Of a DNA stretch of 40,230 nt, positions 307 through 16,343 are shown piece after piece. Location: the NCBI GenBank assembly GCA_037386965.1, contig JARRLN010000020.1, forward strand, positions 1 through 40,230. Direction: 5' to 3'. How positions within the stretch are numbered: the stretch's first letter is position 1; the number at the start of each line of letters is the position of its first letter. Source of the stretch: Nitrospirota bacterium. GTDB taxonomy: Bacteria; Nitrospirota; Thermodesulfovibrionia; Thermodesulfovibrionales; JdFR-86. A program made the translations under genes and the position numbers. Under the pieces are notes generated by a model that saw only the letters and a list, made by a program, of their open reading frames with translations, was not told the origin of the DNA and did no database searches.

Positions 307-404
307 TGGCGGGAGCGTGTGGGAATCGAACCCACCCTGCCGGTTCTTAGCCGGCAACACCGGATTTGAAGTCCGGGAGGGACACCAGAACCCTATACGC
401 TCCC
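307..404 (-). tRNA. selC: tRNA-Sec (anticodon UCA)
   Basis: On the minus strand a 98-nt gene reads from GGGAGCGT (404) to ACGCTCCC followed by an encoded GCCA end (310-307). The acceptor stem has 8 perfect base pairs and the T arm is GTGGG-TTCGATT-CCCAC. The anticodon arm is CCGGA-CTTCAAA-TCCGG with anticodon TCA. A long variable arm is closed by TGCCGG/CCGGCA. The 8+5 acceptor/T stack, UCA anticodon and long variable arm are diagnostic of selenocysteine tRNA. The organism therefore probably decodes UGA as Sec. No selA, selB, selD or obvious selenoprotein lies in this window. Confidence 0.97.
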
Positions 405-505: not shown

Positions 506-1189
506 ATGGAGAGCACGGCGGAGGACAGGCTTCGGAAGGCAGCGGCAACCCTCTTCGGCCCCGGGGCCGGAGAAGACCACCGTTTTCTCCTCACCCTCCC
601 CCTCCCGGCCCTGAAAAGCGCCTACCGGAAGAAGGCCCTGTCCCTGCACCCCGACATGCGCCTGAGGCGCGGGCGGGGCGGGGACGAGCAGTGCTCGGCC
701 CGGTTCATAGAGGCGCGAGAGGCCTACGAGGAGATACTCTCGTTCCTTGGGAAAAGGGGCATCGGGGCCGCGGAGGCGGGCCGGAAAGCGCCCGTCCTTC
801 CGGGGCGGAGGCTTTACCTCGGCGAGTACCTGGCCCGCGTGGGGGCCGTCCCCGAGGGGGCGGTGGCCCGGGCCCTTACCTGGCAGCGGGGGCTTCGCCC
901 TCCCCTGGGGGAACTGGCCAGGAGAAGGGGATGGCTGAGCGAGCGGGCCCTCCATCGCGCCATGGAAGGCCGCCAGAGGGGAGAGCCCCTGGGGCGGGCC
1001 GTCCTGCGCATGGGATACCTCACCCACCAGCAGGTAAGAAGCCTGCTCTTCTGCCAGATGCGGGCGCAGCGCCCCCTGGGTGCGTACTTCGTCACCCGTG
1101 CATACCTCACCCCCGAGGAGCTGGAGACGCACCTAAGCGGCTGCCGCGCCCATAACGCCCGCTTCCCCGAGGGTGTCCTCGGCGCCTGA
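506..1189 (+). CDS. J-domain protein with four MshEN-like repeats
   Basis: 227 aa. Residues about 33-80 form a J-domain-like unit: a basic helix (SAYRKKALSLHPD) with the HPD tripeptide at 48-50, needed in J proteins to stimulate DnaK ATPase, then a helix ending AREAYEEIL. Residues 104-213 hold four tandem repeats of the form LGxxLxxxGxLxxxxLxxALxxQ. Their LG glycines are at 106, 135, 163 and 192, a 28-29 residue period. That is the 24+5 layout of MshEN c-di-GMP-binding motifs found at the N-terminus of some GspE/PilB ATPases. There is no signal peptide or membrane segment, so it is probably cytoplasmic. Function is inferred: a co-chaperone or adaptor, possibly nucleotide-responsive. The start lacks a Shine-Dalgarno sequence and fits a near-leaderless mRNA. 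Confidence 0.8.
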   Translation: MESTAEDRLRKAAATLFGPGAGEDHRFLLTLPLPALKSAYRKKALSLHPDMRLRRGRGGDEQCSARFIEAREAYEEILSFLGKRGIGAAEAGRKAPVLPGRRLYLGEYLARVGAVPEGAVARALTWQRGLRPPLGELARRRGWLSERALHRAMEGRQRGEPLGRAVLRMGYLTHQQVRSLLFCQMRAQRPLGAYFVTRAYLTPEELETHLSGCRAHNARFPEGVLGA

Positions 1190-9441: not shown

Positions 9442-10752
9442 CTACACCCGGCAGGCACCCTGGAGCTCGAAACGATAGGAGTTCCAGCTCCCGCACTCCG
9501 GGCACCGGCCCGACCACTGCCTGTCCTCGTGGCCGCAGACGCTGCAGCAGTACGGAAGACGCATGCTCCCGCCCAGCTCGATGGTTTTTCTGAACTGCTC
9601 CACGGCCTTGCCGCACTCGTCCCTCCTGAGGTGCAGCTCCCCCAGGAGCTTGTGCAGGTCGGGCCAGGTCTCCGCGGTGTCCAGGGAGGCCAGGACGTCG
9701 AAGGCGTCCTCTATCATCTCCAGGCGGAAGTACAGCTTGCCCAGGAAAAACTTCAGCGCCTCGTCGCGGGGGCGGGCAGAGAGGGCCTTCCGGTAAATGC
9801 GGATGAGGCGGGAGGGCTCCTCCAGGGAGATGAGAAGGTCCTCCAGGCGCGCCAGGATTATCTGGGACGAGGTGGACTCGTAGGCCCTCTCCAGGTAGCT
9901 CACCGCCTCTTCGGTGTCCCCCCCGGCCAGCATGGTCTCGGCCACTCCGAGGTGAGCGGGGGTGAACTTCTCGTCCTCCCGCACCAGGGTCTTGAAGGCC
10001 TTCAGAGCCTTCTCCAGGTCGCCCTTCTCCAGGCTGTCCCGGGCCAGTTCGTAGCGGAAGCCCTTGAGGTTGGCCTCCTCGCGCTCCTTGTCGCGCTCCT
10101 CCCGGAGCAGCCTGAGTATGGCCTTTTGCACCTCGATGAGCTCGTCCCATCGCCCTTCGCGCTCCAGGATGGAGCGCTTCATGTGCAGGGCGCTCAGGTT
10201 GTCGGGGTCCAGGTCCAGGATGTTCTCGACGTAGCCCAGGGCCTCGTCCCAGCCCTGCATCTTCTCCATGATGCGCGCCAGGGAGAACAGGGCCTCCAGG
10301 TGCTCGGGGGAGGAGGCGTGCGCCCGCTTGTAATGGCCGTAGGCCTCCTCGTCCCGCCCCTTGTTGGCCTCGATGTCCCCCAGCCGGAGATGGGCGTCGG
10401 TGTGCCCGGGTTCCTTCTTCAGTATGGCGCTCAGGGCGGCCCGGGCCTCGGCCTCGTCCTCGGCCAGGATGGCGTTGAGGGCCTGGGTGTAGAGGCTGTG
10501 GATCTTCTCTTCGTTCTTCTGCTTCTTCTGGTACTGGTAGGTGAACAGGAAGCGGCGGGTGTCGCGGATGGCAAACAGAAGGAGCATGCAGGCCGCGCCG
10601 AAGACGCTTGAGAAAAGAATGACGCCTATCTTGGGAATCTCGTAGCTCTGGTCGAAGGGCACGAATATGGCGGTGGGGTCGTTGTTGTAGACGGCGAACA
10701 GGGCGAGCACGCCCAGCATGAGAATCACGATGAGGACGGTCACCTTGCCCAT
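9442..10752 (-). CDS. LapA-LapB fusion, LPS assembly TPR protein
   Basis: 436 aa. Residues 4-23 and 44-63 are membrane helices linked by YNNDPTAIFVPF, the layout of the LapA domain (DUF1049). From about residue 85 the protein is a chain of TPR helices (such as GHTDAHLRLGDIEANKG and PEHLEALFSLARIMEK). The C-terminus is a rubredoxin-like zinc ribbon with Cys403/406 (CSVCG) and Cys417/420 (CPECG). TPR plus this ribbon is LapB (YciM), which with FtsH controls LpxC and LPS synthesis in E. coli, where LapA and LapB are separate genes. Here both are one polypeptide. ATG overlaps the rlmH stop (ATGA). Confidence 0.88.
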   Translation of the reverse strand: MGKVTVLIVILMLGVLALFAVYNNDPTAIFVPFDQSYEIPKIGVILFSSVFGAACMLLLFAIRDTRRFLFTYQYQKKQKNEEKIHSLYTQALNAILAEDEAEARAALSAILKKEPGHTDAHLRLGDIEANKGRDEEAYGHYKRAHASSPEHLEALFSLARIMEKMQGWDEALGYVENILDLDPDNLSALHMKRSILEREGRWDELIEVQKAILRLLREERDKEREEANLKGFRYELARDSLEKGDLEKALKAFKTLVREDEKFTPAHLGVAETMLAGGDTEEAVSYLERAYESTSSQIILARLEDLLISLEEPSRLIRIYRKALSARPRDEALKFFLGKLYFRLEMIEDAFDVLASLDTAETWPDLHKLLGELHLRRDECGKAVEQFRKTIELGGSMRLPYCCSVCGHEDRQWSGRCPECGSWNSYRFELQGACRV

Positions 10753-12657: not shown

Positions 12658-13485
12658 TCAGAGCACGTACAGGAAGCTGTCCCCCGAGGGGCAGGCCAGC
12701 CGGAAGCGGACCGCCTTGGCCCCGCGCAGGACCGAGTAGCCCCCGTCGCGCCAGGCGACCTCCTTGGGCTGGGAGGCCCGCACCTTTGCGCCCTCCTCGG
12801 AAAGCCGCGAGGCCAGCTTCCTGCTGGCCTGGGCACAGAACTGCCGCACGGCCTCCAGGAGGGCCGGAAGTTCGCGGGAGCCGCGCACCAGAAGCAGGGC
12901 CACGTCCACCGGGACGGAAATGACGTAGAGGAGGTTCACGTCGCCGTTAAAGCGCACGGAAAAGACACCGAAATTCTTCTCCGGCTCCTCTTGGGTCACC
13001 TCGGCCTCGTCCGGTTTCACGCTGGTGACGGCCGAGCGTCTGAGGGACGCCGCGGTCACCTCCAGGGCATCCCGTACGGCGGCGGGGTTGCTGAGCCCCC
13101 GGGGCAGGACAAGGTCGCCCTGGCCGCTACACTGCGCCTCGAACAGGAGGAGCTCCTCCCTCAGACGGCCCCTGCTCAGAAAACCCTTCCGGACCAGGGC
13201 CTCCCCCAGGGAGAGGTGTTCGGATTTCTGGTGGCTGAGGACGCCGCCCACCTCCACGGGGCTGAGGATGCCCAGCTTCACGGCTATCTCCCCTATCATC
13301 ATGTCCGTCCGCCTCTGCTCCCGGAGAAGCGATTCGAGCTCCCGGGCGCCCAGCATGCCCTTGCTCCGGGCGACCTCGCCGAACCTCAGGTTTCCCGCTT
13401 CCTGGTGCCGCACGGCCTCCTGAAGCTGCTCGCTGCCGATAACGCCGCGGTCCAGAAGGAACTGACCGAAAAACTTTACCGCCAT
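12658..13485 (-). CDS. Four MshEN-like repeats plus CheX-like domain
   Basis: 275 aa, no signal peptide. Residues 5-114 are four tandem repeats of the form GxxLxxxGxLxxxxLxxxLxxQ. Their leading glycines are at exactly 7, 36, 65 and 94 (29-residue period), with Gln closing repeats 1-3. This matches the 24+5 architecture of MshEN c-di-GMP-binding motifs. Residues about 140-275 resemble the CheX/CheC phosphatase fold (FGVFSVRFNGDVNLLYVISV, then LLEAVRQFCAQASRKLASRL). The Glu...Asn catalytic pair of true CheX is not conserved, so phosphatase activity is doubtful. It shares its repeat module with the J-domain protein at 506-1189. The ribosome binding site (GGGAGG) is rather distant from the ATG. 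Confidence 0.72.
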   Translation of the reverse strand: MAVKFFGQFLLDRGVIGSEQLQEAVRHQEAGNLRFGEVARSKGMLGARELESLLREQRRTDMMIGEIAVKLGILSPVEVGGVLSHQKSEHLSLGEALVRKGFLSRGRLREELLLFEAQCSGQGDLVLPRGLSNPAAVRDALEVTAASLRRSAVTSVKPDEAEVTQEEPEKNFGVFSVRFNGDVNLLYVISVPVDVALLLVRGSRELPALLEAVRQFCAQASRKLASRLSEEGAKVRASQPKEVAWRDGGYSVLRGAKAVRFRLACPSGDSFLYVL

Positions 13486-15215: not shown

Positions 15216-16343
15216 GAACGTTCGCACGGAAATACATCACGGTCCTCCTGGGCGTGCTGCTTCTGGCAGGGCAATAACGCGACCCTTGAAGACGACGAGA
15301 AGCGCCTCTGGAACAGGGTCGAGGAGGAGGAAGACGCCCTCAACCACAGCGGCAGCCTCTACGAGGACAAGCAGCTTCTCTCCTACCTGAACGCCGTGGC
15401 GCGGAAGCTTCAGCCTCCGGGGGTCCTCAAGAGCATCCCCTTTGAGGTGCGCGTCCTCAAAAACCCCTACCTGGGGGCCTTCTGCTATGCCAACGGGGCC
15501 GTCTACATCCACACGGGCCTCCTGGCCCGGATGGAAAACGAGGCCCAGCTGGCCACCCTTCTGGGGCACGAGATGACCCACGCCACCCACCGGCACATGC
15601 TCAAGCAGTTCCGCGACACGAAGAACAAACGAGCCGTGCTGGCCACCGTGCACGTCACCCTGGGGGCGGTCCCCGGCGTCGACCTCCTGGGAACGCTGGG
15701 GACGGCCGCAGCGGTGACGGGGTACTCCCGGGACCTGGAAAGGGAGGCGGACAAGGTGGGCCTCCGGCTCATGGTGCAGGCCGGCTACGACCCCCGGGAA
15801 GCGCCCAAGCTGTTTGAGTTCCTCCTCAAGGAGCTCGAGGAAAACGATATCGAGGAGCCCTATTTCTTCGGGACGCACCCCCGGCTGAAAGAGCGGATAG
15901 ACACGTACGAGGAACTGCTTGCCGCCACGTACGCCGGGCACACGGGAGGCGTCACCAACAAGAAGGCGTTCATCGCCAGGACATGGCGCCTTGTGTACGA
16001 CAACGCCGTTTTGGACCTTCGGGCGGGGAGGTTCGACTCGGCCGAAAGGGGCGTAAGGAAATACCTGAGCATCAAGCCCCGGAGCGCCCGGGCCCACGTC
16101 CTGCTGGGAGAGATCATCCGGCAGCGGGGCGGGGACGGAGCCCAGAAGGAGGCGGAGAAGCAATACCGGAAAGCCCTGTCCCTGAATCCCTCCCATGCGG
16201 AGGCCCACAAGGCCCTGGGGCTTTTGTACCTGAAGGAAGGCCGGAAGGGGCCGGCCAAAAAGTCGTTGAAAAAGTACCTGTCCCTGGCCAAGAACCCCCC
16301 GGATAAGGCGTACATAAGGGAATACATCAGACAATGCAAATAG
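15212..16343 (+). pseudogene. M48-family metalloprotease with TPRs, frameshifted
   Basis: The gene starts at ATG 15212 (overlapping the upstream stop) with a signal peptide ending in LLLAG, then hits TAA at 15275. The remainder is open in another frame from about 15270 (GNNATLEDDEKRLWNRVEEE) to 16343. It contains the zinc site GHEMTHATHRH (HExxH at 15567-15581), the third-ligand helix LEREADKVGLRL, and C-terminal TPR helices (such as AEAHKALGLLYLKEGRKGPA). This is the M48 peptidase plus TPR layout of BepA/YfgC, a periplasmic outer-membrane quality-control protease. A 2-base loss at 15271-15272 (expected GGG-TGC, giving lipobox LAGC), or a 1-base G gain, would explain the break. No alternative start codon exists in the second frame before GTG 15396. 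It may be a real mutation or an assembly error. Confidence 0.78.

Follow-up and report, generated by a model that had tools for sequence, protein, structure and literature searches.

A J-domain protein fused to four MshEN-type repeats in Nitrospirota and Desulfobacterota: a putative c-di-GMP-linked co-chaperone

A gene within a stretch of DNA from a Nitrospirota bacterium (contig JARRLN010000020.1; the whole 40,230 nucleotides analysed are referred to here as the window) encodes a J-domain fused to four MshEN-type repeats, and the same fusion is present at 80 further loci in Nitrospirota and Desulfobacterota. This combination of domains had been claimed in a first-pass annotation of the window; both domains are recognised by profiles, by structure prediction and by fold search, and their fusion is conserved across the relatives. 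The most likely role of the protein is that of a class C J-domain co-chaperone, with the repeats providing specificity or control. Cyclic di-GMP (c-di-GMP) is a bacterial messenger best known for its control of motility and biofilms, and a fuller reading, to which we give a little under an even chance, is that the four-repeat module of this class C J-protein putatively binds c-di-GMP and controls the engagement of DnaK. The features of the gene are collected in Table 1.

Table 1. Features of the J-domain/MshEN-repeat fusion gene in the window
Feature	Position	Strand	Evidence or remark
J-domain/MshEN-repeat fusion gene	506..1189	+	ATG start, 227 aa; homologues at 80 further loci
J-domain with long helix I-II loop, residues 1-86	506..763	+	Pfam DnaJ, AF2 helices, Foldseek 2lgw
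HPD motif, H48 P49 D50	647..655	+	80/80 relatives; 52/52 non-redundant members
Short linker, residues 87-97	764..796	+	AF2 low confidence at 88-93; alignments
MshEN-type repeat 1, YLGEYLARVGAVPEGAVARALTWQ	815..886	+	Q127 invariant
MshEN-type repeat 2, PLGELARRRGWLSERALHRAMEGR	902..973	+	position 24 = Arg
MshEN-type repeat 3, PLGRAVLRMGYLTHQQVRSLLFCQ	986..1057	+	Q184 invariant
MshEN-type repeat 4, PLGAYFVTRAYLTPEELETHLSGC	1073..1144	+	degenerate
C-terminal His-Asn, H216 N217, invariant and family-specific	1151..1156	+	52/52 non-redundant members

The Pfam DnaJ model matches residues 36-75 of the window protein with 24.9 bits (E=2.2e-5), slightly under its curated cut-off of 27.8, and matches all 33 of the aligned family members at E<=0.01 (best 7e-8). 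In the AlphaFold2 (AF2) model this domain consists of helices at residues 5-17, 25-29, 33-47, 49-55 and 60-83, with the HPD tripeptide placed between helices II and III, and its Foldseek match is 2lgw, with a probability of 0.92 but an E of 0.88. Residue counts given here and below refer to 52 non-redundant members of the family (<70% identity), 100% of which possess H48, P49 and D50. Pfam finds DnaJ alone in the window protein and in its aligned relatives, and a G/F region, zinc finger or DnaJ C-terminal domain was detected in none of them. The protein resembles class C J-proteins in its HPD motif, in a helix II whose positive charge is conserved (KSAYRK) and in the lack of these additional domains; it departs from them in its helix I-II loop, which is long and conserved (FLEYIQPSG in relatives), and in the C-terminal MshEN-type module. 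The 227-residue chain ends after the repeats, and Pfam and NCBIfam searches find no ATPase match in it, unlike a GspE/PilB-type secretion ATPase. An open reading frame on the other strand (416-1132) was excluded by homology, because it is the protein of the 506-1189 strand that recurs in the 80 relatives.

The four repeats begin at residues 104, 133, 161 and 190, giving a period of 29/28/29. The 24+5 architecture that had been read from the sequence therefore stands for pairs 1-2 and 3-4, whereas pair 2-3 is 24+4; likewise, the proposed consensus LGxxLxxxGxLxxxxLxxALxxQ is followed to its terminal Gln in repeats 1 and 3, but the last residue is R156 in repeat 2 and C213 in repeat 4. The NCBIfam model NF053729 (c-di-GMP_motif, MshE-related) scores the module at 68 bits, well over its cut-off of 38 (E=4.6e-19), in three overlapping matches covering repeats 1-2, 2-3 and 3-4, and matches 33/33 aligned family members. 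No Pfam MshEN/GspE_N-type domain is found in the window protein even at E<=10. Additionally, a sequence profile (A3) matches MshE (5htl, E=9.6e-6) and PilF (6f8l, E=2.2e-8).

The predicted structure agrees with these matches. An AlphaFold2 model of the full protein, built with a 33-sequence alignment, has an overall pLDDT of 87.7, with values of about 90 over most J-domain helices and of 94-98 over the greater part of the repeats. Confidence is low in the linker, around residues 50-59 of the J-domain and in the C-terminal tail, and the pTM of 0.55 fits two domains joined by a flexible linker. Modelled alone, the repeat domain (pLDDT 92.3, pTM 0.72) consists of eight helices, alternately short and long as in MshEN and paired as had been anticipated; the contrary outcome, repeats that do not form paired MshEN helices, did not occur. 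In a Foldseek search of the PDB its best match is c-di-GMP-bound MshE, 5htl (1.2 Å over 58 columns, 31% identity, probability 0.99, E 0.97), with c-di-GMP-bound PilF GSPII-B structures ranking next. The shortness of the match keeps E at about 1, and the fold match therefore rests on probability, rmsd and consistent ranking.

Members of the family share only about 25-40% identity with the window protein, and a search of contigs with the single sequence returned nothing, while a search with the family alignment recovered the relatives; loci L073-L110, which match in the J-domain only, were left out of the family. The alignment search recovered the fusion in named records from Nitrospirota, among them Candidatus Magnetobacterium casense, Magnetominusculus and Magnetocorallium, and from Desulfobacterota, among them Desulfobulbaceae and Desulfurivibrio. 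Among the matches listed in genome samples of the two phyla, it is carried by at least about 32 of 396 Nitrospirota and at least about 41 of 395 Desulfobacterota genomes; both counts are lower bounds, six candidates having been scored per genome. In a tree of the repeat domain all J-fused repeats form one clade, and nine stand-alone four-repeat proteins lie apart with a support of 100, a topology consistent with a single old fusion of J-domain and repeats. The window member clusters with other Nitrospirota members, and its end branch, the longest in the tree (1.51), together with an unusual letter make-up, marks it as divergent. The long branch and the Pfam DnaJ score below cut-off might point to a chance or decaying open reading frame, a pseudogene without function. 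We reject this reading as hardly credible, since the frame is intact, conserved in two phyla and keeps every family invariant (HPD, W126, Q127, R131, Q184, H216 and N217). In five Nitrospirota members, magnetotactic and related (L045, L047, L048, L051 and L052), roughly 90-220 residues of S/T/Q/N/G/Y-rich, low-complexity sequence separate the J-domain from the repeats, compared with about 11 residues in the window protein.

Whether the repeats have kept a ligand can be judged against the MshEN consensus and its ligand contacts, in which Gly touches guanine, Gln the ribose-phosphate, and the residue at position 1 stacks on guanine in MshE (PMC5013675); the position-1 consensus has since been widened to R/K/L (PMC11731258). 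All four window repeats possess LG at positions 2-3, and across the family the contact glycine is present in 52/52 members in repeats 1, 2 and 4 and in 50/52 in repeat 3. The Gln at position 24 is likewise found in 52/52 members in repeats 1 and 3 (Q127 and Q184). Position 24 of repeat 2 is Arg or Lys in 42 of the 52, R156 being the version in the window protein, and that of repeat 4 varies (C213 in the window protein), so that no adjacent pair of repeats in the window protein has two position-24 Gln residues. Position 1 reads Y, P, P, P in the window repeats, with no stacking Arg and no Arg, Lys or Leu, and is inconsistent across the family, with R/K in 13/52 members in repeat 1 (often Leu) and in 34/52 in repeat 2; members with Arg at this position include L048 (Candidatus Magnetobacterium casense) and L033. 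Outside the MshEN consensus the family has further invariants of its own: R131 is present in 96% of members, W126 is invariant or nearly so, and H216-N217 is found in 100%.

Published mutants and natural variants indicate how such deviations may be tolerated. Single Gln-to-Glu changes in PilF GSPII-B leave a Kd of 0.46-0.95 uM and the double change abolishes binding (PMC11731258), and in PilF GSPII-A a natural, different set of deviations abolishes c-di-GMP binding (PMC12002112). In view of the contact residues and of these data on tolerance and loss (PMC5013675, PMC11731258, PMC12002112), c-di-GMP binding is plausible for the family; for the window member, as judged from its sequence, it is uncertain. 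We favour retained ligand binding, probably of c-di-GMP, because the guanine-touching Gly and the ribose-phosphate Gln are invariant. Weighing on the same side are the recognition of both domains by profile and predicted structure, the sequence matches to MshE and PilF, the conservation of HPD, Gly, Gln and the basic residue of repeat 2, and the widened position-1 consensus (PMC11731258). Against it stand the window protein's lack of Arg, Lys or Leu at position 1 and of Gln24 in repeats 2 and 4, the inconsistency of position 1 across the family, the Foldseek E of about 1, the loss of binding by PilF GSPII-A, whose deviations are comparable (PMC12002112), and the location of the strongest additional invariants (R131, W126, H216-N217) outside the MshEN site.

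The main rival account retains the class C J-protein and has the repeats repurposed as a module that docks a protein, either a client or a membrane partner, their response to nucleotide having been lost; we regard it as a substantial possibility, if a less than even one. Docking would use a face formed by Q127, R131, Q184, Q188, H216 and N217 at the helix ends. The family invariants outside the MshEN consensus (HN and R131), the degeneracy of position 1 and of repeat 4, and the ability of MshEN-related domains to bind proteins, as in the PilB-PilZ complexes 7lkm/7lkn that appear low in the Foldseek list for the repeat domain, are consistent with such a role, and XpsE (PMC5013675) and PilF GSPII-A (PMC12002112) demonstrate that the fold can be kept without c-di-GMP binding. 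However, invariance of the ligand-contact residues G3 and Q24 (repeats 1 and 3) at 25-40% identity is more than a conserved fold or a docking role would readily account for, and the Gln of repeat 2 has been replaced by Arg or Lys, not by random residues. The basic residue at this position in 42/52 members, with R131 and the invariant HN, could alternatively form an altered site (R/K156, R131, H216-N217) for another ligand, a 3',3'-cGAMP-like cyclic dinucleotide or an anionic metabolite. MshEN binds cGAMP weakly (PMC5013675), but the several GGDEF proteins encoded in the genome fit c-di-GMP, and we consider a different ligand unlikely.

Under the favoured reading, with c-di-GMP as the ligand, we infer DnaK stimulation, ligand binding and their coupling as follows. 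The HPD J-domain would recruit and activate DnaK, as expected from its family, and the four-repeat module would set when or where DnaK is recruited. Cyclic di-GMP or a close cyclic dinucleotide would most likely lie in the clefts between paired repeats, held by glycine amides, the Gln of repeats 1 and 3 and the Arg/Lys of repeat 2, the last taking the place of Gln at the phosphate. Binding would then alter how the module presents the client or the J-domain to DnaK. That c-di-GMP, acting on a four-repeat MshEN-type module, in this way gates DnaK recruitment by a new kind of J-protein is a tentative proposal, well short of an even chance.

The genomic setting of the gene differs between lineages. 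In the window it stands alone, with the next coding region apparently on the opposite strand, and the Nitrospirota neighbours (DAHP synthase, Nramp, glycosyltransferases) are lineage-specific. At 24 Desulfobulbales-type loci, of which nine are distinct at 70% identity, the gene directly 3' on the same strand encodes a TPR-containing M48 peptidase, with a gap of -10 to 98 nt; a dnaK-like identity considered for this downstream gene (615 aa) was rejected on its identification as the M48 peptidase. The protease is roughly 610 residues long and, by eye, contains long hydrophobic stretches, suggesting a membrane protein. It is probably co-transcribed with the J-MshEN gene, an arrangement that suggests a role for the fusion in membrane-protein quality control in that lineage, where the client pathway would probably involve the adjacent protease. 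Outside these loci no operon partner is conserved, and none of the family loci compared shares a conserved neighbour for c-di-GMP turnover, which counts against c-di-GMP sensing. On the other side are the M48-TPR gene 3' of the fusion in those 24 loci and the source genome's own complement, which comprises one full-length DnaK and a partial HSP70-family match, two canonical DnaJ proteins and 10 GGDEF matches.

Among known systems the module is closest to the MshEN/GSPII domains of Vibrio MshE and Thermus PilF GSPII-B, with which it shares the 24-residue short-helix/long-helix repeat, the period of 29 residues, LG and a closing Gln in repeats 1 and 3, and a predicted fold 1.2-1.7 Å from c-di-GMP-bound structures. 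It differs from them in that the window protein has four repeats, a 24+4 spacing in the middle, no ATPase and a replaced Gln in repeats 2 and 4, in that the J-fusion family adds the invariants R131 and H216-N217, and in that c-di-GMP binding is here putative. The nearest precedent for joining a c-di-GMP-receptor-type domain to an Hsp70-system domain comes from Myxococcus xanthus, in which PilZ is fused to DnaK domains, as in CsdK1 and CsdK2, or to DnaJ domains (PMC10313047, PMC8316039). By analogy, CsdK1/2 argue for a sensory role of the present fusion (PMC10313047), although the Myxococcus proteins contain PilZ, an unrelated receptor fold, belong to another phylum and, in CsdK1/2, carry Hsp70 itself. 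We found no paper describing a fusion of DnaJ with MshEN, GSPII or T2SSE_N. The text of the MshEN survey names REC, HD-GYP, CheA, CheX, cyclase and kinase as partners, DnaJ not being among those given there (PMC5013675), and an unnoticed DnaJ listing in its supplementary domain-combination tables is possible. The novelty suggested for the fusion in the first-pass annotation agrees with this literature search and is qualified by the PilZ fusions of Myxococcus (PMC8316039, PMC10313047).

If the repeats bind c-di-GMP, protein folding or quality control would come directly under the messenger at the step at which a co-chaperone chooses its client. The Hsp40 level would then be a point of second-messenger control in Desulfobacterota and in Nitrospirota, magnetotactic species among them, and the Desulfobulbales would link c-di-GMP control to a membrane M48 protease. 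If they do not, the family would be a clear case of a messenger-receptor fold turned docking module. The idea of a sensor is directly testable: the family is widespread, it offers a clear set of invariant positions to mutate, and one lineage adds a protease partner gene.

Related proteins are encoded in the same genome. A stand-alone four-repeat MshEN protein (G000:C7:33965-34294, L024), with close equivalents in many relatives, exemplifies proteins of the phylum that have the same four-repeat layout but differ from the fusion in lacking a J-domain and the C-terminal HN, in their even 29-residue spacing and in their separate branch (support 100). A 476-residue protein (L195:1598-3028, on G000:C35) likewise pairs MshEN-like motifs with a J-domain, in a separate architecture in which the motif pair lies inside an N-terminal DUF4388, followed by the J-domain and TPRs; no paper was found on DUF4388 with DnaJ. 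Within the window, a second MshEN-type repeat protein (12658-13485, minus strand; 274 aa, NF053729 E=2.3e-20) has about 150 residues after the repeats that match no Pfam or NCBIfam model. The window also encodes a BepA-like M48 peptidase with TPRs (15396-16343, plus strand), the genome having four M48 matches in all, and a TPR protein, probably LapB, that carries a C-terminal rubredoxin metal-binding domain of the LapB type (9442-10752, minus strand). A tRNA-SeC (anticodon TCA; 307-404, minus strand) lies just upstream of the J-MshEN gene and is encoded on the other strand; adjoining it, positions 1-300 of the window are AT-richer (44-51% GC, versus 65-76% after) and may be the margin of an inserted element that the end of the contig has truncated.
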